Positions 8,560 to 39,325 are shown, counted from the stretch's first letter. The stretch: DNA of 40,766 nt from an uncultured Desulfovibrio sp. (GCA_902783285.1 CACZQM010000128.1:1-40766), one strand, 5' to 3'. The notes: a model not told the origin generated them from the letters alone. Translations and numbers: made by a program.

Positions 8560-10284
8560 TCAGCCCGGCTGTTCCGTGCCCCTGTCCGGCCAGTACAGTT
8601 CATAGTACAGGCTTTCCGAATCGGAATCGCCGATGAGGAACAGTTCGTCGGATTCCTGGAATTCCCTGCGCGGATCGGGGTTGATGAGCATCTCTCCGTC
8701 TACCTTCTTGATGGCCACCACGTTGCAGCGGCTGTTTTTTCGGATGCCGCTGTCGATCAGCGTTTTGCCGGCAAGCTCGCTGCCGGCCGTCGCACGGAAG
8801 ATGTTCAGCCCTTCGTTGATCATGAACACGCGCCCGGGCTCCATCAGGTTGATGATCCTGTTGGAGACCAGCGAGGCCAGGGAGAGCACCAGCGTCGCCC
8901 CGGCGGCATGCAGCACCTTGACGTTGCGGTCCAGGTTGGTGCGGCTGATGATCTGCACATCGGGGCGCAGGCGGCGGCAGTAGATGGTAAGGTAGATGTT
9001 GATGTCGTCATCATGCGTGGTGATGATGATGGACGGGGCGTTTTTTATGCCTGCCCGTTCCAGGGTGGCGGGATCCGCAGCGTCACCCACCTGCACGCAG
9101 ATGCCGGGCATTTGCGGAGCCACGTTCTGCTTGTCCACGACCACCACGTCCAGTCCGCGGTCCCTGAGGGCGAGCGCTGCGGCTGCCCCCACCCTGCCGC
9201 CGCCCAGCACCAGCACGGGGCCGGCAGGTGCGTCATCCCGCTCCCGTGAGCATTGCTGGCTGAAAGCTTCGACCTGCCCGCGTGATCCGGCGATGACCAG
9301 GACCTTCTGGTCTTCGAGCAAAGTGTCGGGACCGGGCTGTTCGAACACGCCGTGGTTCCACAACCCGACGACGTTGATGCCCATGCTGGCGCGGAGATCG
9401 CTTTCGCGCAGGGTCTTGCCGCCAAGAGTGGTATGCTTCACCTGGGCTTCGGCAATGACCAGGGGGCCGACTGCCGCGAGCTGGCTCACGCAAAGCCTCC
9501 CCGTCGCCACGCGCCGCGTGAGCGACTGGCCCAGCAGCTTGCGGAACTGGAATACCCACGTGCATCCCGCCAGCTTGAGGATGTCGATGGATTCTTCCTT
9601 TTCCGCCCTGGAGATCATGGGCACAGACGTTGTGAGTTCGCGCAGGGTGAATGCCACGTTGGTGTTGCGCACGTCGGTATCGAGCGCCACGACCATGCGT
9701 GCCTGATCCGTCCGCAGGCTGCGGTAGACCTCCACGTCGTCGTAGTCGCCCACTACGGCACGGAGCCCCTGGTCCATGAGCGCCAGGGCATCCTGCGTGC
9801 TGCCGCAGAGGAGCACGTTGACAACGCCATAGCGCGTGAGCACCTGGGCAAGGTTTTTGGAGATGGGGCTCACGCCGACGATGACCACATGGCCGCGGGT
9901 CGAAGCGGGCAGGCTGTGCTGCACCTCGCGCTTCTTTTGAGCTTCCAGCCAGGGATTGTAGATGAACTGCAGGAAAACGGAGGGCAGGACGATGAGCAGC
10001 CCCACGATCCCCGTGAGCAGCACAAGTATGGAAAAGGCTAGCCCCAGGTCGGAATGGAAGGTGATGTCGCCGAAGCCCAGCGTGGACATGACGGTGAGCG
10101 TCCAGTAGACCCCGGTTATCCAGCTGAACTCCCTGCCTTCCAGCAGCATGATGGCATGGAAAAGCACGCTGAAGACAAGGACGAGCACCAGGAGTGCGGC
10201 GGCGAACCGCGTGACGTACGCCACATTGCGCCGCGTCTCCCTTCCTTTGAAGAAGCGGTTGAATTTGTCGGTGGAAAAGTTCAT
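8560..10284 (-). CDS. Two-TM potassium-channel-like protein with tandem RCK/TrkA domains
   Basis: Probable K+ channel or K+-linked regulator in the inner membrane. Residues (574 from this ATG): TM1 about 22-46, pore helix and filter TLGFGD at about 68-73, TM2 about 80-104, then two RCK units. Each unit is a TrkA-N Rossmann fold plus a TrkA-C domain: N1 about 131-250 with C1 270-345, and N2 356-480 with C2 495-560. The second Rossmann fold has canonical GGGRVG (361-366) and Asp384, whereas the first reads GVSPIS and probably lacks normal nucleotide binding. A TTG at 10314 is in frame; the ATG here is preferred but both have weak ribosome sites. It is monocistronic and convergent with the ABC ATPase gene. 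Confidence 0.88.
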   Translation of the reverse strand: MNFSTDKFNRFFKGRETRRNVAYVTRFAAALLVLVLVFSVLFHAIMLLEGREFSWITGVYWTLTVMSTLGFGDITFHSDLGLAFSILVLLTGIVGLLIVLPSVFLQFIYNPWLEAQKKREVQHSLPASTRGHVVIVGVSPISKNLAQVLTRYGVVNVLLCGSTQDALALMDQGLRAVVGDYDDVEVYRSLRTDQARMVVALDTDVRNTNVAFTLRELTTSVPMISRAEKEESIDILKLAGCTWVFQFRKLLGQSLTRRVATGRLCVSQLAAVGPLVIAEAQVKHTTLGGKTLRESDLRASMGINVVGLWNHGVFEQPGPDTLLEDQKVLVIAGSRGQVEAFSQQCSRERDDAPAGPVLVLGGGRVGAAAALALRDRGLDVVVVDKQNVAPQMPGICVQVGDAADPATLERAGIKNAPSIIITTHDDDINIYLTIYCRRLRPDVQIISRTNLDRNVKVLHAAGATLVLSLASLVSNRIINLMEPGRVFMINEGLNIFRATAGSELAGKTLIDSGIRKNSRCNVVAIKKVDGEMLINPDPRREFQESDELFLIGDSDSESLYYELYWPDRGTEQPG

Positions 10285-10329
10285 AGCCGCAGTATGCCCC
10301 GCCCCGCTTGCCAAGGCAAGGCTTTTATG

Positions 10330-10390: not shown

Positions 10391-10419
10391 TTGACAATAA
10401 CGTTGTGATAACGTAGCAT
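10391..10419 (+). promoter_or_regulatory. sigma-70-type promoter of the racemase operon
   Basis: Perfect TTGACA (10391-10396), exact 17-nt spacer, TAGCAT (10414-10419, 4/6). Transcription would begin near 10426, inside the palindrome at 10423-10434. On the minus strand TTGTCG (10425-10430) and TATCAC (10402-10407) are also spaced 17 nt, so a weaker divergent promoter for the channel gene may overlap it. The spacer and -10 include two copies of ATAACGT (10397-10403 and 10408-10414), exactly 11 bp apart. Confidence 0.6.
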
Positions 10420-10422
10420 GTA

Positions 10423-10434
10423 ATTGTCGACAAT
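10423..10434. promoter_or_regulatory. palindromic operator-like site ATTGTCGACAAT
   Basis: Perfect 12-bp palindrome sitting at the predicted transcription start of the racemase operon. The TTGT-N2-ACAA core resembles operators of FCD-type GntR regulators. No GntR gene is in the window, so the regulator, if any, is encoded elsewhere. Assignment to a family is inference; the symmetry itself is certain. Confidence 0.45.
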
Positions 10435-10525
10435 ATGATTTTTATCAAAAATGGCAACGGGTTTTTCATGCGGGAGAAAACGTCTTGCCCCTGCGGAGGG
10501 CGGCCTGTGCTTGCGGAGGCGTCTT

Positions 10526-11338
10526 ATGGTCCAGCGTTTTGAAAGGCATGCCTTGTCTCCCCTCCCCATCGGGATCGTGGGCGGGATGGGTCCTTATGCG
10601 GGATATGACCTTGTCCGCAAGATATTCCGCTGGACGAAAGCCGGCTGCGATGAAGACCATCTTCCCGTGATGCTCCATTCCTTCCCTGCCTGGATACCGG
10701 GACGCCCGGCGTTCCTGCTGGGCAGGATCGCAGAAAATCCGGGGGAGGACATCGGCGGCATCATGGTGCAGCTTGCCCGCTGCGGGGCCAGGGTCCTGGG
10801 CATGCCCTGCAACACGGCGCACAGCCCCCGCATCCTTGATGCGGCCATGAAGCGCCTTCAGGATTCCTGTGAAGATGTCCGCTTCATCTCCATCATTAAA
10901 AGCGCCGTCGACCATGTGCGGAGCATCTGCAGGCCAGGCGGCCGTGTGGGGCTCCTGGGCACTGTGGCCACGCTGCGCACCAGGCTGTACCAGGACGCGC
11001 TGGAGCAGGCGGGGCTTGAACCCGTCGTTCCCGGCCAGGACGAATGCGACCTGGTGCAGGACGCTATCAGCAGCCCCGGATTCGGCATCAAATCGTTTTC
11101 CGACCCTGTTTCCCCCAGGGCGCGCGGCATCCTGCTCGATGCAGCAGCGCGCCTTGCGGAAGAGAAAGATGTTTCCGTGATCCTCCTGGGGTGCACGGAG
11201 ATCCCCCTGGCCATCCGGGAGACCAGCCTGGGTGGCATCCCTGTTGTGGACGCCACCAGCATCCTTGCCAGGGAATTGGTGCGGGCCAGCTGCCCGGAAC
11301 GGCTCAACGATGCCATAGAACTTCAAACAGAGGAGTAG
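10526..11338 (+). CDS. Aspartate/glutamate-racemase family protein
   Basis: Cofactor-independent amino-acid racemase of the Asp/Glu racemase superfamily. The start has a full GGAGG 6 nt upstream (10515-10519); the frame is open to 10451 but without a ribosome site. The product is 270 residues. The motif GIVGGMGPYAG is at 16-26, and the two catalytic cysteines are in MPCNTAH (Cys95) and LLGCTEIPL (Cys223), so it should be active in both directions. It is the first gene of a three-gene operon; its stop codon is 3 nt before the next ATG and the ribosome site of that gene lies inside this frame. Substrate is not determinable; aspartate, glutamate or a cysteine/cysteate-type amino acid are options given the neighbours. 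Confidence 0.88.
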   Translation: MVQRFERHALSPLPIGIVGGMGPYAGYDLVRKIFRWTKAGCDEDHLPVMLHSFPAWIPGRPAFLLGRIAENPGEDIGGIMVQLARCGARVLGMPCNTAHSPRILDAAMKRLQDSCEDVRFISIIKSAVDHVRSICRPGGRVGLLGTVATLRTRLYQDALEQAGLEPVVPGQDECDLVQDAISSPGFGIKSFSDPVSPRARGILLDAAARLAEEKDVSVILLGCTEIPLAIRETSLGGIPVVDATSILARELVRASCPERLNDAIELQTEE

Positions 11339-11341
11339 CTC

Positions 11342-12343
11342 ATGAATCTTGCTCAGTTTCCACGCCGCGGGTATGTGAAGCATCCCACGCCCATCGAGTT
11401 CCTGCCCCGTTTTTCCGAGGCCCTTGGCGGAAAGGTGAAGGTGTACATCAAGCGCGATGACCTGCTCCCGGGCTGCGCCGGCGGCAACAAGACGCGCAAG
11501 CTTGACTTTTCCATTGCGGATGCGCTCGCCAAGGGCGCCGACACCATCATCACCTGCGGCGCCGTGCAGTCCAACCACTGCAGGCTGACCCTGGCCTGGT
11601 CGGTGCATGAAGGGCTCGACTGCCATCTCGTCCTCGAAGAGCGCGTCCCGGGCAGCTATGATCCTGAAGCATCGGGCAACAACCTGCTGTACCATCTGCT
11701 GGGCGTGAAGAGCATCACCGTGGTGCCCGGCGGATCCCCCATGATGGACGAGATGGAAAAAGTGGCTGCCAAGCTCCGCGCGGAAGGCCGCAAGCCCTAT
11801 ATCATCCCCGGCGGAGCGTCGAATGAGATCGGCGCCCTGGGCTACGTGGCCTGCGCGCAGGAGACCATCCAGCAGATGTTCGACCTGGGGCTCGATTTCG
11901 ACCACATCTACGTCCCCAGCGGCTCCGCCGGCACCCATGCCGGCATGATCGCCGGTTTCGTCGGCAACAACATGGATATCCCGATCTCCGGGATCGATGT
12001 CAGCCGCCCCGGCGACGTGCAGCAGGAGATCGTGTACAAGCTGGCGCAGAAGGTCCTGGACCGCATCGGCGCCGGAGTGCAGCTGCCCAAGGAAAAGGTC
12101 GTCTGCTACGGAGACTATTACCTGCCCGGCTATTCGCGTCCCAACCCCGGCATGGTCGAGGCCGTGAAGCTGCTGGCGCAGACAGAGGCCATACTGCTCG
12201 ATCCGGTTTACAGCGGGAAAGCATTTGCCGGCATGATCGACCACATACGCCAGGGGCGCTTCGCAGAAGGATCGCGCATCCTCTTCCTGCATACAGGCGG
12301 ATCGCCTGCGCTGTATGCCTATCTTCCCACTTTCCTGGGCTAG
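11342..12343 (+). CDS. PLP-dependent D-cysteine desulfhydrase / L-cysteate sulfo-lyase family enzyme
   Basis: Fold-type II PLP enzyme of the ACC deaminase / D-cysteine desulfhydrase family. Family members cleave D-cysteine to pyruvate, ammonia and sulfide (DcyD), or L-cysteate to pyruvate, ammonia and sulfite (CuyA). The PLP lysine is Lys50 in GGNKTRKL (47-54); GAVQSNH (73-79) and SGSAGTHAG (residues 196-204) are typical substrate/phosphate loops, and the C-terminal LHTGGSPALYAY is conserved. Length is 333 residues, normal for the family. GAGGAG overlaps the end of the racemase gene, indicating translational coupling. The motifs do not separate the two activities; the neighbouring racemase would make sense for either enantiomer. 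Confidence 0.85.
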   Translation: MNLAQFPRRGYVKHPTPIEFLPRFSEALGGKVKVYIKRDDLLPGCAGGNKTRKLDFSIADALAKGADTIITCGAVQSNHCRLTLAWSVHEGLDCHLVLEERVPGSYDPEASGNNLLYHLLGVKSITVVPGGSPMMDEMEKVAAKLRAEGRKPYIIPGGASNEIGALGYVACAQETIQQMFDLGLDFDHIYVPSGSAGTHAGMIAGFVGNNMDIPISGIDVSRPGDVQQEIVYKLAQKVLDRIGAGVQLPKEKVVCYGDYYLPGYSRPNPGMVEAVKLLAQTEAILLDPVYSGKAFAGMIDHIRQGRFAEGSRILFLHTGGSPALYAYLPTFLG

Positions 12344-12389
12344 CGCCGGGCAGCGGGCATCATCATAATCCGTGATAGGGAGGCATGAC

Positions 12390-13796
12390 ATGGCAGAACA
12401 AGAGCGGAAATTGCAAATGTACGGCGGGATGCTGGGAGGGTTCGTGCCGCTCCTCATCCTCGTCATAGGGCTCGTGTGGCTCTCTGTGGCGCAGCGGGGC
12501 GGCGTCAAGCCCTTCTGGGCATGCGCCTGGATCGCCCTTGCCGTGGGGCTGTTTTTTGCGCGCAGCAAAGAAGAATACTGCAAGGCCCTCATGCGGGGCA
12601 TCGGTGACAAGACAGGCATCGTCATCGTCACGGCGTGGCTTTTTGCCGGCGTGTTCGGCAAGCTCATGCAGGCGGGCGGGCTGGTCAACGGACTGCTCTG
12701 GCTGGGCATGACCACGGGCGCCGACGGATCCATCTTCGTGGGGCTCGTCTTCCTTGCGGCCATGCTGTTCTCTCTCGGCACGGGCACGTCCACGGGGACC
12801 TGCATCGCACTGACACCGGTGCTTTATCCGGCAGGCGTGTTCCTTGGGGCAGATCCGGCCATGTGCGCCCTGGCCATCCTTTCCGGCGCTGCCTTTGGCG
12901 ATAACCTCGCGCCTGTTTCGGACACCACCATCGTTTCGGCCTACACGCAGGGCGCCACCATGAAGGACGTCGTCCGCAGCCGCTTCCCGCTGGCCATTTC
13001 GGCGGCGGCCGTGGCCATGGTCTTCTTCCTGGTCTTCGGCGGCAACGGCAATGCCGCGGCATTGCCGGAGATCAAGGCCAACCTCGATCCCACAGGGCTC
13101 GTCATGCTCATCGCCCTGATCGTGGTCGTCGCTTCGGCCCTCATGGGGCGGCACATCATCGAATCGCTCATCTACGGCAACGTCACCGCGGCCATCGCCG
13201 GCATCGCCACGGGGAAGATAGCCCCCACGGCCATCTTTGGCATCCCCGCCAAGAGCGGTGGCTCGACCGGCATCATCCAGGCCGGGATCGACGGCGTCGT
13301 GGGCGCCATCATCTTTGCCATCCTCATCCTCGCCGTCACGCAGGTCCTTGTGGAATGCGGCATCATGGACCGGATCCTTGACTATGCCCGCAAGACCTTT
13401 GTGAACACCGTGCGCCAGGCGGAGCTGTTCATCATCGGCGTGACCATCGCGGCCTCCATACCCATTTCGGCCAACGCTCCGGCAGAACTTCTGGTAGGTC
13501 CCAGCCTCGTCAAGCCGATGGGTGAAAAATTCGGACTGGCCGCCGCGCGCAGGGCGAACCTCATGGACTGCGCCGTCTGCACGGTGTTTTTCATGCTGCC
13601 ATGGCATATCGCCGTGGCCACATGGTACGCACAGACGGTGGCCGCTGCCGAAACATACCAGATCGCAGCGCCTTCCGTGAGCGCCGCGCTCATGAACCCG
13701 TATTCCTGGGCCTTGCTCCTCGTCCTGCTGTTCTCGGCCTTCACCGGCTGGAACCGCAGATTCGCCGCCCAGGGTGAGGCCGGCGAGACTGCCTGA
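12390..13796 (+). CDS. NhaC-family Na+/H+ antiporter-like transporter
   Basis: Polytopic inner-membrane secondary transporter of the NhaC superfamily, which includes Na+/H+ antiporters and organic-acid exchangers such as malate/lactate MleN. The ATG has GGGAGG 6 nt upstream; a GTG at 12372 is in frame but lies before that site. The 468-residue product starts with a hydrophobic helix at about 17-31 and has roughly ten more segments, and the GDNLAPVSDTT stretch (about residues 170-180) is characteristic of the family. It is the last gene of the racemase operon, with 46 nt to the preceding gene and a terminator 33 nt downstream. Context suggests uptake or exchange of the amino acid handled by the two enzymes rather than plain sodium export; this is inference. 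Confidence 0.87.
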   Translation: MAEQERKLQMYGGMLGGFVPLLILVIGLVWLSVAQRGGVKPFWACAWIALAVGLFFARSKEEYCKALMRGIGDKTGIVIVTAWLFAGVFGKLMQAGGLVNGLLWLGMTTGADGSIFVGLVFLAAMLFSLGTGTSTGTCIALTPVLYPAGVFLGADPAMCALAILSGAAFGDNLAPVSDTTIVSAYTQGATMKDVVRSRFPLAISAAAVAMVFFLVFGGNGNAAALPEIKANLDPTGLVMLIALIVVVASALMGRHIIESLIYGNVTAAIAGIATGKIAPTAIFGIPAKSGGSTGIIQAGIDGVVGAIIFAILILAVTQVLVECGIMDRILDYARKTFVNTVRQAELFIIGVTIAASIPISANAPAELLVGPSLVKPMGEKFGLAAARRANLMDCAVCTVFFMLPWHIAVATWYAQTVAAAETYQIAAPSVSAALMNPYSWALLLVLLFSAFTGWNRRFAAQGEAGETA

Positions 13797-13828
13797 CAGT
13801 GATCCCAGGCTTTCCCTTGAACTTCCGC

Positions 13829-13853
13829 AGGCCCCGGCTTCCGGGGCCTTTTT
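13829..13853 (+). terminator. rho-independent terminator of the racemase operon
   Basis: Perfect 9-bp stem AGGCCCCGG/CCGGGGCCT with a 3-nt CTT loop, running into five T residues. It closes the racemase/PLP-lyase/transporter transcript. Confidence 0.92.
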
Positions 13854-14171: not shown

Positions 14172-15887
14172 ATGGCTCTTAACATCCTCATTATCGGCGG
14201 TGTCGCACTCGGCCCCAAGGCTGCCACGCGTGCCAAGCGCCTGCTCCCCGACAGCAACATCACCATGATCGACCAGGGGACGTATGTTTCCTACGGTGGC
14301 TGCGGCATCCCCTATTTCGTAGGCGGCGATGTGCAGCAGATGAACGGACTTCGCACGACCAATGCCGGCGTCGTCCGCGATGAAGCGTTTTTTGACAGCC
14401 AGAAGGATGTCAAGGTCATCTGCCATATGCGCGCGCTCTCCATCGACCGCAAGGCCAAGGCCGTTGAGGCCGAAGACACCCAGACCGGCGAAAAGCGCAC
14501 CTTCTCCTATGATAAGCTGGTCATCGCCACCGGCAGCAGCCCGCGCATCCCCCCCATCCCCGGCGCCGATCTTAAAAACGTGACTTCCGTCACCTGCCTG
14601 GAAGCCGCACAGGCCATCCAGCAGCAGTGCGCCGCACGCAAGATCAATCATGCCGTGATCATCGGCGCCGGATTCATCGGGCTCGAGATGGCCGTGGCCC
14701 TTGCCGACATGTGGGGCATCAAGGTCACTGTCATCGAGATGATCGATCATGTGCTGCCCGCCCAGCTCTCCCTCAATTTCGCCCAGATGGCCAAGCATGA
14801 CCTTGAAGAACTGGGCGTGACCGTCTACACCGCCGAATCGGTCAAGGAACTCAAGGGCAAAGACGGCGCTGTCTGCCAGGTGGTCACCGACAAGCGCGTC
14901 ATCGATGCCGACCAGGTGATCTTCTCCATCGGCGTGACTCCCAATTCCAAGATCGCATCCGATGCCGGGCTGCTCTGCCATCCGCGCGGCGGCATCATGG
15001 TGAACAGCCATATGCAGACTTCGGACCCGGACATCTACGCCGGCGGCGACGTGGTGGTCGTGCGCAACCTCATAAGCGGCGACTTCAGCTACCTGCCCCT
15101 GGGTTCCATGGCCAACCGCCAGGGCCGGGTCATTGGCAGCAACCTGGGCGGTGTGCAGGCGACGTTCGACGGCGTCGTGGGATCCTGGTGCGTCAAGCTG
15201 AACAAACTGCATTTTTCTGGTGCGGGGCTTACCCTGCACCAGGCACGCCAGGCGGGATTCGACGCTGTTGAAGCCAGCATGGAATCCTATGACATGGCGC
15301 ACTTTTATCCGGGGCACACCCCCCTGCTGCTCAATGTCGTCGCGGACAGGCAGACCAAGCGCATCCTGGGCATCCAGGGCGTGTGCGCCAATGGGCACGC
15401 TGTCAAGGCACGCACAGACGCCGTGGCCGCCATGCTGCAGATCGGCAAGCCCACGCTCAACGACCTCTCCAACCTTGAGATCTGCTATGCGCCGCCTTTC
15501 GCCTCTGCCATGGACGCCATCAACATAGCGGGCAACGTGGCCCAGAACGTCGTGGAAGGGCGCCACAATGCCATCACCCCGGACGAATTCCTCGACCTGT
15601 GGCGCAACCGCGACAAAAACAACATCCTCTTTGTGGACATCCGTCCGCCCAAGGCAGGCAAGCCCATCGAAGAACGCCACCCCGGGCAGTACCTTTCGCT
15701 GCCGCTCGAAGAGTTCAAGCAGCGCCGTGGCGAATTTCCCAAAGACCGTCCTGTGGTGCTCATCTGCAATTCCGGAACGCGCGCCTATGAAACGCAGATC
15801 AAGCTGCGTGCCATGGGCATAGAAGCTCCCAACTCCGAAGGCGGGCACACCGCCATGAAGCTGCGCGGCGACGAAAAGGAATTCTAG
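14172..15887 (+). CDS. CoA-disulfide reductase-like flavoprotein with C-terminal rhodanese domain
   Basis: FAD/NAD(P)H pyridine-nucleotide-disulfide oxidoreductase of the CoADR-Rhd class, which reduces CoA disulfide, CoA persulfides or polysulfide/sulfur. Visible: N-terminal FAD loop GGVALGPKAA (9-18), single redox cysteine Cys44 in SYGGCGIPY, NAD-binding GAGFIGLEMA (about 166-175), second FAD motif YAGGD, dimerisation domain, then a rhodanese domain (about 470-571) with active-site loop CNSGTR starting at Cys532. Length 571 matches this fusion. AGGAGG lies 9 nt upstream. The gene is monocistronic between its own promoter and terminator. In a sulfur-metabolising anaerobe a role in persulfide or sulfur reduction is more likely than NADH oxidation alone. 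Confidence 0.9.
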   Translation: MALNILIIGGVALGPKAATRAKRLLPDSNITMIDQGTYVSYGGCGIPYFVGGDVQQMNGLRTTNAGVVRDEAFFDSQKDVKVICHMRALSIDRKAKAVEAEDTQTGEKRTFSYDKLVIATGSSPRIPPIPGADLKNVTSVTCLEAAQAIQQQCAARKINHAVIIGAGFIGLEMAVALADMWGIKVTVIEMIDHVLPAQLSLNFAQMAKHDLEELGVTVYTAESVKELKGKDGAVCQVVTDKRVIDADQVIFSIGVTPNSKIASDAGLLCHPRGGIMVNSHMQTSDPDIYAGGDVVVVRNLISGDFSYLPLGSMANRQGRVIGSNLGGVQATFDGVVGSWCVKLNKLHFSGAGLTLHQARQAGFDAVEASMESYDMAHFYPGHTPLLLNVVADRQTKRILGIQGVCANGHAVKARTDAVAAMLQIGKPTLNDLSNLEICYAPPFASAMDAINIAGNVAQNVVEGRHNAITPDEFLDLWRNRDKNNILFVDIRPPKAGKPIEERHPGQYLSLPLEEFKQRRGEFPKDRPVVLICNSGTRAYETQIKLRAMGIEAPNSEGGHTAMKLRGDEKEF

Positions 15888-26486: not shown

Positions 26487-26804
26487 ATGACGACAGTTGG
26501 CAGTGATCGTATCCGTATCAAGCTCAAGGCTTACGATTACCGCATCCTTGACAAGGCTGTGGCGGAAATCGTGGACACGGCGCGCAATACGGGCGCCAAT
26601 GTGGCTGGGCCGATCCCGTTGCCCACCAACATCCATAAGTACACGATTCAGCGCTCGGTGCACGTGAACAAAAAGTCGCGTGAGCAGTTCGAGATGAGGG
26701 TGCACAAACGCCTTATGGACATCCTTGAACCCACGCAGCAGACCGTGGACGCCCTGGGCAAGCTTTCCCTGCCCGCAGGCGTGGATGTGGAAATCAAGCT
26801 CTAG
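26487..26804 (+). CDS. rpsJ: 30S ribosomal protein S10
   Basis: Small-subunit head protein (uS10), also NusE in transcription antitermination. The 105 residues carry the family start [17 protein letters not shown] and the loop region [14 protein letters not shown] (41-54). The ATG has TGGAGA 7 nt upstream; the frame reaches 26442 but lies in the leader hairpin. First gene of the S10 operon, after the long leader described at 25974-26486. Confidence 0.98.
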
Positions 26805-26815
26805 TGAGGGGCGTC

Positions 26816-27445
26816 ATGTCTGAGAAAATGGGTATTATTGGACGAAAGCTGGGCATGACTCGCATTTTCGCCGCAGACGGCAGCGCTGTTGCCGTGACCG
26901 TGGTCAAGGCCGGGCCCTGCCCCGTGACCCAGGTCAAGACGGTGGAGAAAGACGGTTACAATGCCCTTCAGATCGGCTTTGAAGAAGTGGCTGAAAAGAA
27001 AGTGACCAAGCCCCTGCGCGGTCACTTTGCCAAGGCCGGGGTCGCCCCCTGCCGCGAGACCCGCGAGATCCGCCTCGCGGAGCCGGCCGCTTACGAGGTT
27101 GGGCAGGTCGTCACCGCAGACGTGTTTGCCGCAGGCGACATCGTCAAGGTGACCGGGACCAGCATAGGCAAGGGCTACCAGGGCGTGATGCGTCGCTGGA
27201 ATTTCCATGGGAGCGACGACGGCCATGGCGACGAAAAGGTGCATCGTTCCGGTGGTTCCATCGGCAACAACACCTTCCCCGGACACGTCATCAAAGGCCG
27301 CAAGATGGCCGGACAGTGGGGGGCGGAGCGCGTCACCCAGCTGGGGCTGACCGTTGTGGAAGTGCGTCCCGAGGATAACGTCCTCCTTATCAAGGGCGCC
27401 GTGCCAGGGCCTAAGAACGGCCTTGTCCTGGTGCGCAAGCAGTAG
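26816..27445 (+). CDS. rplC: 50S ribosomal protein L3
   Basis: Early assembly protein (uL3) near the peptidyl transferase centre. 209 residues starting [18 protein letters not shown], with the central-loop stretch [18 protein letters not shown] and [20 protein letters not shown] (138-157). GAGGGG lies just before the ATG; a GTG overlapping the rpsJ stop is in frame but has no ribosome site. Gap of 11 nt to rpsJ. Confidence 0.98.
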
Positions 27446-27468
27446 TGCGAAACATTGGAGATGAAGCA

Positions 27469-28098
27469 ATGGCTGTTGTAAAAGTTTACGATCAGAACAA
27501 GCAGGAAGCCGGGGAAGTCACCCTCGCTCCCGAGGTGTTCGAAGTCGAAGTGAGGCCGGAGATTCTGAACCTTGTGGTTCGCGCTTACCGCGCCGCGCTG
27601 CGTGCGGGCACGCATGCGGTCAAGACGCGTGCGTTTGTGTCCGGCGGCGGCAAGAAGCCCTTCAAGCAGAAGGGCACGGGTAATGCGCGTGAAGGTTCCA
27701 ACCGTTCGCCCATCATGCGCGGCGGCGCGATCATCTTCGGACCGCAGCCCCGTGATTACAGTTTCAAGGTTAACAAGAAGGTTCGCAGCCTTGCGCTCCG
27801 CATGGCTCTTTCCTCACGCCTGGCCGACGGGCTCATGGTCGTCAAGGGCATCGAGCTTGCCGAGGCCAAGACCAGGCTTTTCGCAAATGTGGCAAAGGCT
27901 CTCGGCCTGACCAAGGCCCTTGTGGTCGCCGGGACCGCTGAGAGCGGCCCCGACCCCAAGCTGGCGCTTGCTGCGCGCAACCTGCCCGGTGTCACCGTGG
28001 TCACCCCCGATGCCGTCACCGTGTATGACGTGCTCAACTGCAAGCAGCTCGTACTGCTGGAAGGCGCCCTGCCCCAGCTCGAAGAGAGACTGAAGTAG
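27469..28098 (+). CDS. rplD: 50S ribosomal protein L4
   Basis: Exit-tunnel protein (uL4), 209 residues, with the tunnel-loop motif GGGKKPFKQKGTGNARE and RGGAIIFGPQPRDY. In E. coli L4 represses its own operon through the S10 leader; whether this homologue does so here is unknown, but the hairpins at 26380-26458 make the question relevant. TGGAG lies 8 nt before the ATG, which excludes the GTG at 27445. Confidence 0.98.
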   Translation: MAVVKVYDQNKQEAGEVTLAPEVFEVEVRPEILNLVVRAYRAALRAGTHAVKTRAFVSGGGKKPFKQKGTGNAREGSNRSPIMRGGAIIFGPQPRDYSFKVNKKVRSLALRMALSSRLADGLMVVKGIELAEAKTRLFANVAKALGLTKALVVAGTAESGPDPKLALAARNLPGVTVVTPDAVTVYDVLNCKQLVLLEGALPQLEERLK

Positions 28099-28120
28099 TC
28101 GCTCCCCGAAAGGAATGGAC

Positions 28121-28408
28121 ATGGATTACACTACAATTCTTCTGAGGCCCGTGGTCACCGAAAAGGCCACTGCTCTGCGCGAGCAGGGCGTGTACGCCTT
28201 TTTTGTGGCTCCGAAGGCCAACCGGATCGAGATCGGTAAGGCAGTGGAAGAAGCCTTCAAGGTCAAGGTCACCGATGTCAATGTCGTCACGGTCAAGCCG
28301 CGCCGCCGCGTGCGCCAGGGCCGTGTGAAGGGGCGCATCGCCGGCTATCGCAAGGCGTATGTCACCCTCGCCGCTGACAACAAAATTGATTTCTTCGAGG
28401 GAGTCTAG
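28121..28408 (+). CDS. rplW: 50S ribosomal protein L23
   Basis: Tunnel-exit protein (uL23) that docks trigger factor and SRP. 95 residues beginning MDYTTILLRPVVTEKAT, with the typical KANRIEIGKAVEEAF and a basic loop KPRRRVRQGRVKGR. AAAGGA 6 nt upstream supports this ATG over the one 6 nt earlier, which would have no spacing. Confidence 0.97.
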   Translation: MDYTTILLRPVVTEKATALREQGVYAFFVAPKANRIEIGKAVEEAFKVKVTDVNVVTVKPRRRVRQGRVKGRIAGYRKAYVTLAADNKIDFFEGV

Positions 28409-28411
28409 TCA

Positions 28412-29242
28412 ATGGCAGTCATTAAAATGAAACCGACCTCGGCTGGGCGTCGTTTCCAGACGGTTTCCGACTTCGCAGAGATCACGAGATCCACGCCGGA
28501 AAAGTCCCTGACCGAAGGTCTGAACAAGAAGAGCGGACGCAACAACAACGGACGCGTCACCAGCCGCCGCCGCGGCGGCGGGCACAAGCGCCTGTACCGC
28601 GTGATCGACTTCAAGCGTGACAAGGCGGGCATCCCGGCCAAGGTGACGGAGATCGAATACGATCCCAACCGTTCCGCCCGCATCGCCCTGCTCACCTACG
28701 CCGACGGCGAAAAGCGCTACATCATCGCCCCCGTGGGCATCCGCCAGGGTGATGTCGTGGAATCCGGTGACAAGGCCGACATCAAGCCCGGCAACGCCCT
28801 CGCCCTTGGGCGCATCCCCGTTGGCACCAACGTGCACAACATCGAGATGCATCCGGGCCGCGGCGGACAGATGTGCCGCGCCGCCGGCACCTATGCCCAG
28901 CTCGTGGGCAGGGACGGCAAGTATGTCATCGTCCGCCTGCCTTCCGGCGAAGTCCGCAAAGTGCTCGGCACCTGCCTGGCCACGGTCGGCCAGGTCGGCA
29001 ACGTGCAGAACGAGAACATCAGCCTGGGCAAGGCTGGCCGCAACCGCTGGCTCGGCCGCCGTCCCAAGGTCCGCGGCGTCGCGATGAACCCTGTTGACCA
29101 TCCCCTGGGCGGCGGTGAAGGCCGCAGCTCCGGCGGACGCCATCCGGTCACGCCATGGGGCATCCCGACCAAGGGCTACAAGACCCGCGCGAAGAAGAAG
29201 CCTTCCAGCCGCCTTATCATCAAGAGCCGCGACAAGAAGTAA
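28412..29242 (+). CDS. rplB: 50S ribosomal protein L2
   Basis: Large-subunit protein (uL2) needed for subunit joining and peptidyl transfer; 276 residues. Conserved blocks: [18 protein letters not shown], the RNA-binding core [22 protein letters not shown], and the C-terminal [16 protein letters not shown] with the invariant His. It begins 3 nt after rplW, so coupling is likely. Confidence 0.98.
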
Positions 29243-29254
29243 GAGGAGCCGGAC

Positions 29255-29542
29255 ATGCCAAGATCTCTTAAAAAAGGTCCCTTTGTGGACGGCAGCCTTA
29301 TGAAGAAGGTGGACGCGGCCGTTGCCAGCAACGACCACAAGGTCATCAAGACCTGGTCCCGCCGCTCCATGATTTTGCCGGAAATGGTTGGTTTGACGTT
29401 TGCCGTGCACAACGGCAAGAAGTTCATCCCGGTTTTCGTGACGGAGAACATGGTCGGGCACAAGATGGGCGAATTTGCGCCCACGCGCACCTTCCACGGT
29501 CATTCTGCCGACAAGAAGACGAAAGCGGCCACGAAAAAATAG
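29255..29542 (+). CDS. rpsS: 30S ribosomal protein S19
   Basis: Head protein (uS19) contacting S13 and bridge B1. 95 residues starting [19 protein letters not shown], with [20 protein letters not shown] and the [15 protein letters not shown] end block. GAGGAG lies upstream of the ATG; 12 nt follow rplB. Confidence 0.98.
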
Positions 29543-29554
29543 CGAGTAACGTTC

Positions 29555-29893
29555 ATGGAATCGAAAGCAATCTGCAAGTTTCAGCGGGTCTCCCCGCGCA
29601 AGACCCGCCTGGTTGCCAGGAACATCAAGGGTCTTCCCGTAGAGGACGCGCTGAACCAGCTCAAGTTCACGCCCAACAAGCCTGCCGGAGTCCTTTACGG
29701 GGTGGTGCGTTCGGCGCTGGCCAACGCCTCACAGTTCCCTGGCATCGATGTGGACTCCATGTACGTCAAGGACGTTGTGGTCAACGAAGGGCCCACCTGG
29801 AAGCGCTTCATGCCGCGCTCCCAGGGACGCGCTATGCACATCCGCAAGCGCACCAGCCACATCACCGTAATTCTTGCGGAAGGACAGGAATAG
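29555..29893 (+). CDS. rplV: 50S ribosomal protein L22
   Basis: Exit-tunnel protein (uL22), 112 residues. The beta-hairpin that lines the tunnel is visible as [20 protein letters not shown] followed by [12 protein letters not shown]. Macrolide-resistance changes in other species map to this hairpin; nothing unusual is seen. It starts 12 nt after rpsS. Confidence 0.97.
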
Positions 29894-29895
29894 GC

Positions 29896-30538
<643 letters not shown>

Positions 30539-30539
<1 letters not shown>

Positions 30540-30958
30540 TGCTTGCTCCCAAGAGAATCAAATTCCGCAAGTGGCAGAAAGGCCGCCTTCGCGGCCCCGC
30601 CAACCGCGGCGCCACCATCGCTTTTGGCGAGATAGGCCTGAAGGCAGTCGAGCACGGCAAGCTTTCCAGCCAGCAGATCGAAGCAGCCCGTATCGCGATG
30701 ATGCGCCATATCCGCCGCGGCGGCAAAGTGTGGATCAGGATCTTCCCGGACCATCCGGTGACCGCAAAGCCTCTGGCTACCCGCCAGGGAAGCGGCAAGG
30801 GCGCTCCGGTGGGCTGGTGTGCACCGGTCAAGCCCGGACGCGTGCTCTACGAGATCAAGGGCGTCGAGCTCGAGCTCGCCAAGCGTGCGCTCACCCTCGC
30901 CAGCCATAAGCTCCCGGTCAAGACCGTCATCGTGATAAAGGAAGGGGCCTTCGCATGA
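30539..30958 (+). CDS. rplP: 50S ribosomal protein L16
   Basis: uL16, near the A-site finger and the tRNA elbow; 139 residues starting [16 protein letters not shown]. Conserved blocks include [20 protein letters not shown] and [18 protein letters not shown]. The start overlaps the rpsC stop by one base (TAATG) and the stop overlaps rpmC by four, so expression is coupled on both sides. Confidence 0.98.
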
Positions 30959-31146
30959 AAATGAAAGAAATACGCGAGATGAGCGTCGAGCAGCTGCAGG
31001 CCAAGCTTGTCGAGCTGCGCCAGGAGCTCTTTAACCTGCGCTTCCAGCATGCAACGTCCCAGTTGGAAAAAACGGCCTCCATACCGGCGACCAAAAAAGA
31101 CATTGCCCGCGTGTTGACGGCCCTTGCCGCCGCCGCGAAGAACTAG
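30955..31146 (+). CDS. rpmC: 50S ribosomal protein L29
   Basis: Small helical protein (uL29) near the tunnel exit; 63 residues. The helix pair [20 protein letters not shown] and the [12 protein letters not shown] segment are diagnostic. The start overlaps the rplP stop (ATGA); a second ATG two codons later is possible. No separate promoter. Confidence 0.96.
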
Positions 31147-31154
31147 GAGCGGAA

Positions 31155-31421
31155 ATGAACAGCGCAATCGAAAAGCGCAACGGCAGGACGCTCGTTGGCA
31201 CCGTGGTCAGCGACAAGTGCGACAAGACGATCGTCGTCCTTGTCGAGACTCTGGTCCAGCATCCGTTGCTCAAGAAGTACATCCGCCGCCGCAAGAAGTT
31301 CACGGCGCACGACCCCATGAACGAATGCGGCATCGGCGACAAGGTCAAGATCGTGGAATACCGGCCCATGAGCCGGAACAAGCGCTGGCATCTCGTGTCT
31401 GTGCTTGAAAAGGCCGTCTAG
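31155..31421 (+). CDS. rpsQ: 30S ribosomal protein S17
   Basis: OB-fold assembly protein (uS17), 88 residues, with [20 protein letters not shown] and the [20 protein letters not shown] block. TAGGAGCGG precedes the ATG and overlaps the rpmC stop. It ends the block usually assigned to the S10 operon. Confidence 0.97.
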
Positions 31422-31451
31422 TCCCCGCCGGGCTGACGAAAAGGAAACACA

Positions 31452-31820
31452 ATGATCCAGGTAGAATCCAGACTCCAGGTCGCCGATAATTCCGGCGCCA
31501 AGGAAGTGGCCTGCATCAAGGTGCTGGGCGGCTCCCACCGCCGCTACGCTACGGTGGGCGACATCATCATGGTGTCCGTCAAGGACGCCATCCCCCACGC
31601 CAAGGTGAAGAAAGGCGATGTGATGGAGGCCGTGATCGTGCGCACCGCCAAGGAAATGCGCCGTCCTGATGGCTCCTACATCAAGTTTGATACGAACGCC
31701 GCCGTGCTTCTCACCAAGCAGGGCGAACCGGTTGGTACCCGCATCTTCGGACCTGTGGCCCGCGAACTCCGCGCCCGCAACTTCATGAAGATCGTGTCCC
31801 TCGCCCCCGAGGTCCTGTAG
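31452..31820 (+). CDS. rplN: 50S ribosomal protein L14
   Basis: Intersubunit-bridge protein (uL14), 122 residues starting [18 protein letters not shown], followed by the [17 protein letters not shown] core and the [19 protein letters not shown] end. The 30-nt gap to rpsQ has AAAAGGAAAC but no recognisable promoter, so the spc genes seem to be read from the S10 promoter. Confidence 0.98.
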
Positions 31821-31831
31821 GAGCCGACGCC

Positions 31832-32152
31832 ATGAAGCATTATCGCATCCATAAAGACGACAAGGTGATGGTGATTGCCGGTAAGGACGAGGGAAAGATC
31901 GGCAAGGTCCTCAAGATCCTCCGCAAGACCGACCGCATCCTCGTTGAAAAGGTCAACGTTGCCAAGCGCAACGTCAAGCCCAATCCCTACAAGCGCGAGC
32001 CCGGCGGCATCGTTGACAAGGAGATGCCCATCCATGTCTCCAATGTCATGGTCGTGTGCCCGCACTGCGCCAAGCCAACCCGCATCGGCTTCAAGGTGGC
32101 GGACGACGGAAAGAAAGTCCGCTTCTGCAAGAAGTGCGAGAAAACCATCTAG
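31832..32152 (+). CDS. rplX: 50S ribosomal protein L24, zinc-type C-terminus
   Basis: uL24, an initiator of 50S assembly; 106 residues. A KOW motif spans about 8-35 ([18 protein letters not shown]), and the C-terminus carries two CxxC pairs, CPHC (76-79) and CKKC (99-102), a likely zinc knuckle. GAGCC precedes the ATG and 11 nt separate it from rplN. Confidence 0.97.
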
Positions 32153-32166
32153 CAAGGTGAACGACG

Positions 32167-32706
32167 ATGACCCGTCTTGAAACGATATACCGTGAGAAAG
32201 TGATCCCGGTATTGCAGAAGGAGTTTGCTTACAAGTCTCCCATGCAGATCCCTGGGATCGAGAAGATCTCCCTGAATATCGGTCTTGGCTCCGCCAACCA
32301 GAACCAGAAGGTGATCGAAGACTGCGTTGCCGACCTGACCGCCATTGCCGGACAGAAGGCCGTGGTCACCCGTGCCAAGAAGTCCATCGCTGCATTCAAG
32401 CTGCGCGAAGGCATGCCCATCGGCGTGCGCGTCACGCTGCGCAAGGATGCCATGTGGGACTTCCTTGACAAGCTGATGAATTTTGCCATGCCCCGCGTAC
32501 GCGACTTCCGCGGCATCCCCGACCGTGGCTTTGACGGCCGCGGCAATTTCACCCTGGGCATCAAGGAGCACACGATCTTCCCCGAAATGGAGGCAGACCG
32601 CGTTGAAAGCCCAGTGGGCATGAACATCACCATCGTGACCACCGCGTCCACGGACAAGGAAAGCAAGCTGCTGCTCGAGCAGCTTGGCATGCCTTTCCGC
32701 AAGTAA
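32167..32706 (+). CDS. rplE: 50S ribosomal protein L5
   Basis: 5S-rRNA-binding protein (uL5), 179 residues. It contains [14 protein letters not shown] near residues 29-42, the P-site tRNA loop [20 protein letters not shown], and the [20 protein letters not shown] block. The 14-nt gap to rplX contains AAGGTGA as ribosome site. Confidence 0.98.
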
Positions 32707-32716
32707 GGAGTGAGCC

Positions 32717-32902
32717 ATGGCTCGTACGTCTCTTAAGGTAAAGGCCGCCCGCAAGCCCAAGTTTGCCGTGCGCGCCTACAACCGCTGCCCCGTGTGCGGA
32801 CGTCCTCACGCCTTCATGCGCCAGTTCGGCCTCTGCCGCATCTGCTTCCGCAAGAAGGCTCTCAGCGGGGAACTTCCCGGCGTCCGCAAATCCAGCTGGT
32901 AA
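32717..32902 (+). CDS. rpsN: 30S ribosomal protein S14, zinc-binding (type Z)
   Basis: Head protein (uS14) of the short zinc form: 61 residues with CPVC (24-27) and CRIC (40-43), one Zn site. This is the C+ version rather than the longer zinc-free paralogue found in many proteobacteria. AAGGAG precedes the ATG; 10 nt after rplE. Confidence 0.97.
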
Positions 32903-32930
32903 TCCCAGCCAACTTTTTAGGAGTTATACC

Positions 32931-33317
32931 ATGTTGACCGATCCCATTGCCGATATGCTCACGCGTATCCGCAACGCACACCTGGCCCTCCACAAGGAAG
33001 TTAGTGTGCCGCGCTCGAAGATGAAGGAAGCCATGGCGACCATCCTCAAGCAGGAAGGCTATGTGGAAGATGTAAGCGTGGACGAAGAGAAGCGCTGCAT
33101 CACCATTGCGCTGAAGTATGTTGGGGGCCGTCCGGCTATCCGCGGTCTCAAGCGCATCAGCAAGCCTGGCCGCCGCGTCTACGTGGGTGCGGGTGAGATC
33201 CCCCGCGTCCAGAATGGCCTCGGCATCTGCATCCTGTCCACTTCCCGCGGAGTGCTGGATGGCCAGACCGCCCAGGCGGAGAAAACGGGCGGCGAACTTC
33301 TTTGCGAAGTCTGGTGA
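32931..33317 (+). CDS. rpsH: 30S ribosomal protein S8
   Basis: Central-domain assembly protein (uS8), 128 residues starting MLTDPIADMLTRIRNAH; in E. coli it represses the spc operon at the rplE site. The C-terminal ILSTSRGVLDGQTAQ segment is the rRNA-binding signature. The start has TAGGAG 9 nt upstream, and the frame, open since 32763 within rpsN, is not used earlier. Confidence 0.98.
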   Translation: MLTDPIADMLTRIRNAHLALHKEVSVPRSKMKEAMATILKQEGYVEDVSVDEEKRCITIALKYVGGRPAIRGLKRISKPGRRVYVGAGEIPRVQNGLGICILSTSRGVLDGQTAQAEKTGGELLCEVW

Positions 33318-33362
33318 TAGCGGCATAAAGGCCGCAGACCTTCAGCCAAGGTAGAAAATACT

Positions 33363-33905
33363 ATGTCGAGAATAGGCAAGCAGCCCATCGAGCTTCCCAA
33401 GGGTGTGGAAGTGAAGCTGGGCGAAGAAATGATCGAGGTCAAGGGTCCCAAGGGGACGCTTCAGACTCCGGTGAGCCCGCTGCTGGACTACGAGCTCAAG
33501 GACGGACGCCTGAGCATCTCCCGCAAGGACGATTCCCGCGAGAGCAATGCCCAGCACGGCCTGCGCCGCACCCTGCTCAACAACTGCATCGAGGGCGTGA
33601 GCAAGGGCTTTTCCAAAACGCTCGAAGTCATCGGCGTGGGCTTCAAAGTGGCCGTCAAAGGCAACCTCATCGACCTTTCGGTAGGCTTTTCACACCCCGT
33701 CCTGGTCGAGATCCCCAAGGGGCTGGAAGCAAAGGCTGACGGAACGAAGCTGACGATCTCCGGGATCGACAAGCAGCTCGTGGGCGAGTTCGCCGCCCGC
33801 CTCCGCCGCATCCGCAAGCCGGAACCCTACAAGGGCAAGGGCATCAAGTACGAAACTGAAATCGTCCGCCGCAAGGCCGGTAAGTCCGGCGGCAAGGGCA
33901 AATAG
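33363..33905 (+). CDS. rplF: 50S ribosomal protein L6
   Basis: uL6, near the GTPase-associated region; 180 residues beginning [17 protein letters not shown], with two alpha/beta domains and the C-terminal [15 protein letters not shown] loop that contacts rRNA. The 45-nt gap to rpsH is among the longer ones but contains only a ribosome site (AAGG). Confidence 0.98.
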
Positions 33906-33916
33906 GGGTAACGGTT

Positions 33917-34276
33917 ATGATTCTTTCCAAGAATGAAAGCCGGAAGCGCCGCAAGGTGCATATCCGCAAGAAGATTTCCGGCACTCCCGAACGTCCGCGC
34001 CTCGTCGTGTTCCGCTCCAACCTGCACATCTACGCGCAGATTGTGGATGACACGGCAGGTCAGACGCTTGTTGCTGCTTCCTCGCTGACGCTCACCAAGA
34101 ACGGTCAGAAGACGTCCGGCAACAAGGCGGGGGCGGAATCCGTGGGCAGGGAGATCGCCCGCTTGGCTCTGGAGAAGGATATCCACAAGGTCATTTTCGA
34201 CCGCAACGGCTATCTGTATCATGGCCGCGTCAAGGCTGTGGCCGAAGGCGCCCGCGAAGGCGGCCTTGAATTCTAG
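33917..34276 (+). CDS. rplR: 50S ribosomal protein L18
   Basis: 5S-rRNA-binding protein (uL18), 119 residues. It has a basic N-terminus ([15 protein letters not shown]), then [20 protein letters not shown] and the C-terminal [20 protein letters not shown] signature. It lies 11 nt after rplF with GGGGTAACGG upstream. Confidence 0.98.
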
Positions 34277-34309
34277 TGGTCCATTTACGGACAGCAAGAG
34301 CAGGAAAAT

Positions 34310-34816
34310 ATGGAACAGCAGCAGCAGACGCAACAGGATTCCGGCTATATCGAAAAAGTCGTGAGCCTCAACCGTGTCGCAAAGGTCGTCAAAGGCGGAC
34401 GCCGTTTCAGCTTCAGCGCCCTCATCGTGGTGGGCGACGGCAAGGGCCGCGTCGGCTTTGGGCTCGGCAAGGCGCAGGAAGTGCCCGAAGCCATGCGCAA
34501 GGCCACCGAGCGCGCACACAAGTCCATGATACAGATTCCCCTGGTAGAGGGCACCCTTCCCTACGAAGTGCTCGGCCGCTTCGGCGCCGGGCGTGTCCTC
34601 CTCAAGCCTGCATCGCGCGGTACCGGCATCATCGCCGGCGGCGCCGTGCGTGCGGTCATGGAAGCCGTTGGCGTGACCGACGTGCTTGCCAAGGCCATCG
34701 GCACCAACAACCCGCACAACGTCCTCCGCGCGGCGGTGGCCGGCCTTGCCTCCCTGCGCAGCGCCGAGGATGTTTCGGAAGTGCGCGGTAAAAAACTGGA
34801 AGCCCCGCGCAAGTAG
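34310..34816 (+). CDS. rpsE: 30S ribosomal protein S5
   Basis: Decoding-fidelity protein (uS5), 168 residues. After a glutamine-rich start ([12 protein letters not shown], unusual but harmless) come the S5 double-stranded RNA-binding part [20 protein letters not shown] and the [20 protein letters not shown] domain. AGGA lies 4-5 nt before the ATG. Confidence 0.98.
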
Positions 34817-34834
34817 GGCGAGTAGGTGAAGCAC

Positions 34835-35014
34835 ATGTCTGAGATCAAGGTCAAACTCATCAGGAGCCGCATCGGCACGACTCCGGCGCAGAAAAAGGTG
34901 CTTGACGCCATGGGACTGCGCCGCCGTGAGATGGTCAGAGTCCTTAAGGATAATCCCGCCGTGCGCGGAATGATCGCCAGCGTCCCGCATCTTGTCGAGG
35001 TAATAGAAAAATGA
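34835..35014 (+). CDS. rpmD: 50S ribosomal protein L30
   Basis: Small protein (uL30) of 59 residues: [19 protein letters not shown] and [20 protein letters not shown]. The ATG with AGGTGA upstream is preferred to the GTG 9 nt earlier. The stop overlaps the rplO start (ATGA), so L30 and L15 are coupled. Confidence 0.97.
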
Positions 35015-35490
35015 GACTGAACGAGCTTTATCCTTTCCCCGAGGAGCGCAAGGGCCGCAAGCGTGTGGGCCGCGGAGCCGGTTCCGGGCTCGGCGGCACG
35101 TCAGGCAAGGGCCATAAGGGCCAGAACGCCCGCGCCGGCGGCGGTGTGCGCCCCGGTTTCGAAGGCGGCCAGATGCCTCTGCAGCGCCGCCTCCCCAAGC
35201 GCGGTTTTAAGAACTATGAATTCAAGGTGACGTACGAAGTCGTCAATCTTGACCGCCTTCTCCAGGCTTTCCCCGCCGACCAGAAGGAGATCACCCTTGA
35301 AGACATCTACACGCGCGGGCTTGCCAAGGGCGGGCTCGTCAAAGTGCTTGGCGGCGGCAATGTCGACAGGGCGGTCAGTGTGGAGGCCTTTTGCTTCAGC
35401 AAGTCGGCCAAGGAGAAGATCCTGGCTGCCGGCGGCGAAGTGAAGGAACTTCTCGCCGCCGAAGGCGAAACGGAAGCTACCGAGGAATAA
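35011..35490 (+). CDS. rplO: 50S ribosomal protein L15
   Basis: Late assembly protein (uL15), 159 residues. The glycine/arginine-rich N-terminal half has [19 protein letters not shown] (20-38) and [18 protein letters not shown], followed by a globular C-terminal half and an acidic end. It overlaps rpmD by 4 nt and is 3 nt before secY. Confidence 0.98.
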
Positions 35491-35493
35491 AAC

Positions 35494-36792
35494 GTGGCGA
35501 ACGGCATGGACACCATGGCGCAGATGCCCGAGCTGCGCAAGAAGCTGGCATGGACCCTGTTCATCCTGTGCATGTACAGGGTGGGGGTCCATATCCCGGT
35601 GCCCGGCATCGATGTCAGCGCGCTCTCGCATTTCTTCGCCAGCATGCAGGGATCGGTTTTCGCCCTGCTTGACATGTTTTCAGGCGGCGGTCTGAGGAAC
35701 GTATCTGTCTTTGCCCTCGGCATCATGCCCTACATCTCGGCCTCGATCATCCTGCAGCTCATGCAGGTGGTCAGCCCTGACATCAAGCGCATGGCCAAGG
35801 AAGAAGGGCAGGCGGGCAGACGCAAGATCACCCAGTACACGCGTTATCTCACGGTGGGCATCACGCTCATCCAGGGGCTTGGCATCGCCACGCTGCTGGA
35901 AGGCATGACCAGCCCTGAGAACGCTCCCGTGGTGATGAACCCGGGCTGGGAATTCCGCCTGGTCACCATTGTCACGCTGACGGCCGGAACCATCCTCATC
36001 ATGTGGCTTGGCGAACAGATCACGGCCAAAGGCATAGGCAACGGGATCTCGCTGATCATCTTCTCCGGCATCGTCGTGGGCATCCCCGGCGCGCTCCTCC
36101 GCTCCTTCCAGCTCATCAAGGCTGGGGACATGAACATCCTCTTCGCCATCTTCATCCTCATCATGATGCTGGCAGTGACGGTGGGCATCGTCTTCGTCGA
36201 GCGGGCGCAGCGCCGCATCCCCATACAGTACGCAAAGCGTCAGGTCGGGCGCCGCATGTATGGCGGGCAGACCACGCACCTGCCGCTGCGCATCAATACT
36301 GCCGGCGTCATACCGCCTATTTTTGCGCAGAGCCTCCTGCTCTTCCCGGCGACGCTTGCAGGATTTTCGACGGCGGGATGGCTGCAGAGGATAGTGCAGT
36401 GGTTCCAGCCGACGTCTGTCCTGTACAACATCATTTTCGTGGCCCTCATCTTCTTCTTCTGCTTTTTCTACACGGCGATCATATTCGATCCCAAGGATAT
36501 CGCCGAGAATCTGAAGAAGGCGGGCGGGTTCGTCCCCGGCATCAGGCCCGGAGAAAAGACGCGTGAGTACATCGATAATGTCCTTACACGCCTGACCTTC
36601 TGGGGCGGGATCTACATCTCGCTGATCTCTGTGCTCCCCATGCTCCTCATCGCGCAGTTCAACGTGCCGTTCTATTTCGGCGGCACCAGCCTGCTGATCC
36701 TCGTGGGCGTCGCGATCGACTTCATGGGGCAGGTGGAGTCGCACCTGATCTCGACGCAGTACAAGACGATGTTGAACCGCGGAAGGGCGTAG
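35494..36792 (+). CDS. secY: Protein translocase subunit SecY
   Basis: Channel subunit of the SecYEG translocase in the inner membrane; 432 residues with about ten membrane segments. Conserved parts: the plug region MFSGGGLRNVSVFALGIMPY, GNGISLIIFSGI, and the C-terminal cytosolic loops with GIRPGEKTREYID. The start is GTG, with GAGGA 7 nt upstream and 3 nt after rplO; internal ATG codons in frame follow 12 and 21 nt later. Confidence 0.98.
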   Translation: MANGMDTMAQMPELRKKLAWTLFILCMYRVGVHIPVPGIDVSALSHFFASMQGSVFALLDMFSGGGLRNVSVFALGIMPYISASIILQLMQVVSPDIKRMAKEEGQAGRRKITQYTRYLTVGITLIQGLGIATLLEGMTSPENAPVVMNPGWEFRLVTIVTLTAGTILIMWLGEQITAKGIGNGISLIIFSGIVVGIPGALLRSFQLIKAGDMNILFAIFILIMMLAVTVGIVFVERAQRRIPIQYAKRQVGRRMYGGQTTHLPLRINTAGVIPPIFAQSLLLFPATLAGFSTAGWLQRIVQWFQPTSVLYNIIFVALIFFFCFFYTAIIFDPKDIAENLKKAGGFVPGIRPGEKTREYIDNVLTRLTFWGGIYISLISVLPMLLIAQFNVPFYFGGTSLLILVGVAIDFMGQVESHLISTQYKTMLNRGRA

Positions 36793-36794
36793 GC

Positions 36795-37610: not shown

Positions 37611-37619
37611 ACACTGTTC

Positions 37620-37676
37620 TTGACAGGGTGAGGACAACAGGATAAGAGATGCAGTTCCGGTGCGTTTTTCGCCGGA
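37620..37676 (+). promoter_or_regulatory. possible alpha-operon promoter and leader hairpin before rpmJ
   Basis: Perfect TTGACA (37620-37625), exact 17-nt spacer, TAAGAG (37643-37648, 3/6). Downstream TCCGG (37656-37660) can pair with CCGGA (37672-37676) around an 11-nt loop containing five T residues. The 99-nt gap is the longest within the ribosomal block, which supports an internal promoter or a regulatory leader. Confidence 0.4.
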
Positions 37677-37709
37677 GAACACATCAAAAGCTATTAAGCG
37701 GAGAGAGCG

Positions 37710-37823: not shown

Positions 37824-37841
37824 CCTTGCAGGAGTCGAAAC

Positions 37842-38210: not shown

Positions 38211-38221
38211 CGGATACGCCG

Positions 38222-38240: not shown

Positions 38241-38267
38241 GCATCCAAAGCCCTAAGGAAGTGCAAC

Positions 38268-38657: not shown

Positions 38658-38683
38658 CGTTTTGATGGCAAGGAGAACTAGCC

Positions 38684-39313: not shown

Positions 39314-39325
39314 TCAGGATCTGCC

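Follow-up and report, generated by a model that had tools for sequence, protein, structure and literature searches.

To which substrate are a racemase, a PLP-dependent lyase and an NhaC-family transporter directed when their genes stand in a single operon? The question is raised by a locus in a DNA stretch of 40,766 nucleotides from an uncultured Desulfovibrio sp., the whole of which is referred to below as the window. Based on curated protein-family models, gene neighbourhoods and phylogenetic trees, the three genes are proposed to form an operon by which a gut bacterium that respires sulfite dissimilates cysteate, a reading to which a probability of roughly 0.8 is assigned. The main rival to cysteate use is the use of D-cysteine.

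The three genes lie on the same strand between one promoter and one terminator (Table 1), with gaps of 3 nt between racemase and lyase (11338/11342) and 46 nt between lyase and transporter (12343/12390). The arrangement of three coupled genes with one promoter and one terminator, as given in the initial annotation, was confirmed, and only the racemase start was moved. The start at 10526 is probably correct, and is preferred to the earlier-called 10451, because GGAGG lies 6 nt upstream of its ATG and 10451 is not preceded by a Shine-Dalgarno sequence. Ribosome-binding sites also precede cuyA (GAGGAG) and the transporter gene (GGGAGG). Promoter-like sites matching 10/12 consensus positions occur five times in the 6.5 kb scanned, against 1.6 expected from shuffles. 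The upstream gene (8560-10314), encoding a TrkA-type potassium channel, is on the strand opposite to the trio, and the downstream gene (14172-15887), encoding a CoA-disulfide-reductase-like flavoprotein with a C-terminal rhodanese domain, is located past the terminator with a promoter-like site of its own; the transcription unit is therefore regarded as consisting of three genes. The flavoprotein is a possible polysulfide enzyme. Elsewhere in the window, a closely packed run of over 20 small ORFs on one strand (26487-40748), one of them identified as ribosomal protein L3 (26855-27445), looks like a ribosomal protein operon.

Table 1. Features of the racemase-lyase-transporter locus, in positions of the window.
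Feature	Position	Strand	Basis
Promoter, sigma-70-type, TTGACA-17-TAGCAT	10391..10419	+	Consensus scan, 10/12
Candidate operator, perfect palindrome ATTGTCGACAAT	10423..10434	.	Conserved WTGTCGACAW upstream of cuyA operons
Racemase, Asp/Glu-type, cofactor-independent two-cysteine, 270 aa	10526..11338	+	PF01177, 101 bits; Shine-Dalgarno
cuyA, predicted PLP-dependent D-cysteate sulfo-lyase, 333 aa	11342..12343	+	NCBIfam NF052482, 503 bits; PF00291
NhaC-superfamily membrane transporter, 468 aa, proposed cysteate importer/exchanger	12390..13796	+	PF03553, 64.5 bits vs 23
Intrinsic terminator, 9-bp GC-rich stem, T-rich tail	13829..13849	+	Hairpin scan

The lyase scores 503.2 bits over its full length against the NCBIfam CuyA equivalog model NF052482 (cut-off, 450), and fails the XcbE (258 vs 450) and ACC deaminase equivalog models. 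It is 48% identical to a megaplasmid protein of Ruegeria pomeroyi DSS-3 that is annotated as D-cysteine desulfhydrase, adjoins a sulfate exporter family gene and is taken here to be the cysteate sulfo-lyase purified from this organism. In a tree of 26 sequences, a CuyA clade apart from DcyD was neither recovered nor rejected (p-AU 0.18). Since this tree does not settle how the CuyA-type groups stand to DcyD, the assignment to a family is based on the curated model together with gene context, by which the lyase would be the D-cysteate sulfo-lyase CuyA and sulfite release is predicted. It is unlikely that the enzyme is instead a D-cysteine desulfhydrase releasing sulfide, with the racemase supplying D-cysteine or serving another amino acid. 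Such an enzyme would belong to the same PLP family, in which E. coli DcyD is 44% identical to the window lyase, CuyA-type enzymes can act as D-cysteine desulfhydrases (PMC10507020), and 7YSK, a D-cysteine desulfhydrase in the PDB, groups with R. pomeroyi CuyA in the tree. However, the window lyase lies below the cut-offs of all D-cysteine desulfhydrase equivalog models (305 vs 429, 286 vs 469 and 284 vs 610), and the cystine ABC transporter genes with which E. coli dcyD sits are absent from the window locus. The initial annotation had proposed a D-amino-acid or cysteate cassette; the cysteate half is favoured by the CuyA model, by the HpsN/aminotransferase contexts described below and by dsrA, and by the failure of every D-cysteine desulfhydrase model.

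In a survey of 91 cuyA loci in Desulfovibrionales, for which ORFs were called by codon scoring, the neighbours within 4 kb included a racemase (about 45 loci), GntR (44), RidA (43), an SDF symporter (34), NhaC (28) and TRAP DctM (27); many of the loci have no racemase nearby, a point against the proposed reading. All three genes are found together at 11 loci, seven of which show the order of the window (the window itself, L089, L095, L105, L132, L137 and L145), so that conservation of the trio across Desulfovibrionales is borne out. Because gene pairs as well as the full trio recur across the order, the trio is not regarded as a chance arrangement. Related loci pair CuyA with genes for an HpsN/HisD-like dehydrogenase and an aminotransferase, which argues against the D-cysteine alternative. 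The aminotransferase at cuyA loci with an HpsN/HisD-like gene is of the DegT family (L085:4759-5949, L098, L099, L100, L102, L104, L153 and Paracoccus L161), with 58-68% identity in Desulfovibrionales and 51% in Paracoccus, and is a candidate for the sulfopyruvate aminotransferase that makes L-cysteate, a step listed as unidentified in PMC11382572. In about half of the loci, a gene of the RidA family (enamine/imine deaminase) is near cuyA, often just before it (e.g., L081:3415-3789), which fits the CuyA reaction because RidA hydrolyses the aminoacrylate/imine that CuyA should release. At L117, L147 and L122, cuyA is present twice, the copies being about 4 kb or less apart, and at L117 and L147 NhaC follows one copy and a TRAP transporter the other.

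The racemase CuyB together with CuyA acting on D-cysteate has been reported (Liu et al., J Biol Chem 2024, 107371, as cited in PMC11382572), and NCBIfam equivalog models exist, so the earlier statement that no described system is known does not hold. The suggestion that CuyA acts on L-cysteate has likewise been overtaken by newer work in which D-cysteate is the preferred substrate, and this preference explains the presence of a racemase in the operon. The window racemase itself falls short of the CuyB equivalog model NF052483 (176 bits; cut-off, 190). Across 247 Desulfovibrionales genomes, matches to this model split into groups of 244-290 and 138-190 bits, and amino-acid racemases of the order that lie away from cuyA reach 175-180 bits; that the window racemase scores no higher counts against the proposed reading. 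In the racemase tree, three clades were obtained, namely CuyB proper, a 28-member clade containing the window racemase and racemases joined to the aspartate racemase 1JFL. The 28-member clade is separate from the CuyB clade, with a support of 100/99 and a stem length of 1.34; its deeper placement is unsure owing to the long stem and the long 3S7Z branch. Sequence identity of the window racemase is 71-76% with Mailhella proteins encoded near cuyA, 43-65% with others of its clade and about 30% with CuyB. Swapping of the racemase between close relatives was also considered and was rejected at the identity seen with its nearest clade mates. The catalytic Cys95 and Cys223, R60 (equivalent to Arg48 of 1JFL) and the lysine of a GxK motif that matches Lys164 of 1JFL are kept in all 28 members, their roles being presumed from aspartate racemase. 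In aspartate racemase, the Arg and Lys bind the acidic side chain, and retention of this pair in the window racemase is a further point against D-cysteine.

Alternatively, the protein could be a general Asp/Glu racemase that supplies D-Asp or D-Glu and shares the transcript by accident, as it passes the general asp_race model (112 bits; cut-off, 93) while failing that for CuyB, and is about 30-31% identical to 1JFL, an archaeal protein, with CuyB no closer. This explanation is nevertheless held to be very improbable, because about 23 of the 28 clade members, from several genera, sit in cuyA clusters, only 3 nt separate the racemase gene from cuyA, and the clade of the order that does join 1JFL is located away from cuyA. 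Members of the window clade are also found in clusters of HpsN, aminotransferase, CuyA and racemase genes (L098, L099, L100 and L102); at these loci, sulfopyruvate-derived L-cysteate would have to be inverted before CuyA could use it. The window racemase is thus a candidate cysteate racemase by gene linkage and not by the CuyB model.

The transporter is far below the cut-off of the NhaC equivalog TIGR00931 (64 vs 370 bits), and is therefore not NhaC proper; a sequence search found no solved structure for it. A copy of its subfamily (at least 69% identity) occurs in 33 of 247 Desulfovibrionales genomes. CuyA is present in 32 of these 33 genomes and in 37 of the 214 others (Fisher p 8e-20, relatedness ignored), and in 26 of the 33, one of them truncated at the end of a contig, about 4 kb or less separates the transporter gene from cuyA. 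In the remaining seven it is away from cuyA, in contexts that indicated no alternative substrate. Import of cysteate by this NhaC-family carrier is suggested by the linkage, and a limited literature search found no paper joining NhaC with cysteate. An ordinary Na+/H+ antiporter or a product exporter, either of which would be compatible with the cysteate enzymes, is a serious possibility, if one with less than even odds. It would accord with the family name, with the presence of both an SDF-family symporter and NhaC at L132, L137 and L145, where NhaC need not be the importer, and with an SDF transporter on another contig of the window genome that is 64% identical to a cuyA-linked one. Against it stand the low score on the equivalog model, the strong linkage to cuyA and the position of NhaC as the sole transporter in the operons of the window and of L095, the locus most closely related to it, the only two of the 11 trio loci without a linked SDF symporter.

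A perfect palindrome, ATTGTCGACAAT, lies 3 nt past the -10 hexamer of the promoter and is not repeated exactly anywhere else in the genome of 1.9 Mb. Of 88 cuyA operons in Desulfovibrionales, 34 have the motif WTGTCGACAW upstream; many of the loci are from related species, so that these counts are not independent. The motif occurs 37 times in 33 kb of upstream sequence, against 32 times in the other 1.01 Mb, so that its upstream density is about 35 times higher. When all 10-mer palindromes in the 400 nt upstream of the 88 operons were ranked without bias, ATGTCGACAT was first (27 loci) and TTGTCGACAA, the form in the window, was second (4 loci), the next being found at 3. TTGACA followed at like spacing by AATTGTCGACAATAT precedes the cuyA operons of L095, L136 and L149, of which L136 and L149 come from another genus. 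The occurrence of TTGTCGACAA in L089 was counted as chance, since some 500 nt separate it from the first gene of the operon and it lies outside a promoter context. The form of the palindrome fits a GntR/FCD operator, and GntR/FCD genes adjoin cuyA in relatives; the regulator at this site is probably a protein of that kind. A search of the window genome (93% complete) for a GntR regulator resembling the one at L095, run with no positive control, gave no match.

The nearest genomes are Mailhella MAGs, several of them from animal guts, and the window genome is Mailhella-like, within Desulfovibrionaceae. It contains dsrA above the cut-off, split over two contigs, and no match to aprA at cut-off level was found in this 93% complete assembly. 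Sulfite is therefore considered a usable electron acceptor, and the host probably respires sulfite and not sulfate. Respiration of organosulfonates, isethionate among them, is described for Mailhella (PMC13219744), and anaerobic respiration in which cysteate donates the sulfite has been reported (PMC6278857). Taurinivorans muris carries cuyA but did not grow on cysteate (PMC10507020), so that cuyA alone does not prove cysteate use. In contrast to aerobes, the window operon contains no sulfite exporter, as would be expected if sulfite is respired.

In the proposed pathway, the NhaC-family carrier would bring cysteate into the cell, possibly in exchange for a product, and the racemase may convert L-cysteate into D-cysteate by a two-cysteine mechanism. 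CuyA, assigned by its curated model, could then use PLP to cleave D-cysteate into sulfite, ammonium and pyruvate, and the Dsr sulfite reductase, of which dsrA is present, could reduce the sulfite to sulfide. A regulator, probably of the GntR/FCD type, may control the operon through the palindrome beside the promoter. Three elements, namely the separate racemase clade, the linkage of NhaC to cuyA and the palindrome, appear to be new to the literature. In a wider reading of these sequence comparisons, whose chances are evenly poised, a second, non-CuyB lineage of cysteate racemases and a dedicated NhaC-family cysteate carrier in a WTGTCGACAW regulon would together constitute an undescribed order-wide module for cysteate respiration, prominent in animal guts. 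Organosulfonate respiration by Bilophila-like gut bacteria leads to hydrogen sulfide, and no paper naming their route of cysteate uptake was found. If the wider reading is true, the candidate carrier, the second racemase lineage and the operator could serve as genome markers for cysteate-respiring bacteria and as handles for testing the trait.

Of the known systems, the NhaC superfamily carriers (NhaC, ArcD-type and Tet(35)) share the PF03553 domain with the window transporter, which differs in being far below every equivalog cut-off and in its linkage to cuyA. E. coli DcyD (L160) is a member of the same PLP enzyme family as the window lyase, but it is encoded in a cystine ABC transporter cluster and releases sulfide, and NCBIfam models separate the two. 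The cuyA locus of R. pomeroyi DSS-3 (L158) resembles the window in its CuyA, whereas it has a LysR regulator, a TRAP transporter and the sulfate exporter family gene, with no racemase alongside. In the CuyA/CuyB system, as cited in PMC11382572, a racemase and a PLP-dependent D-cysteate sulfo-lyase likewise yield pyruvate, ammonia and sulfite; the window differs from it in a racemase of another deep clade, an NhaC-type carrier and a host that is probably an anaerobic sulfite respirer.
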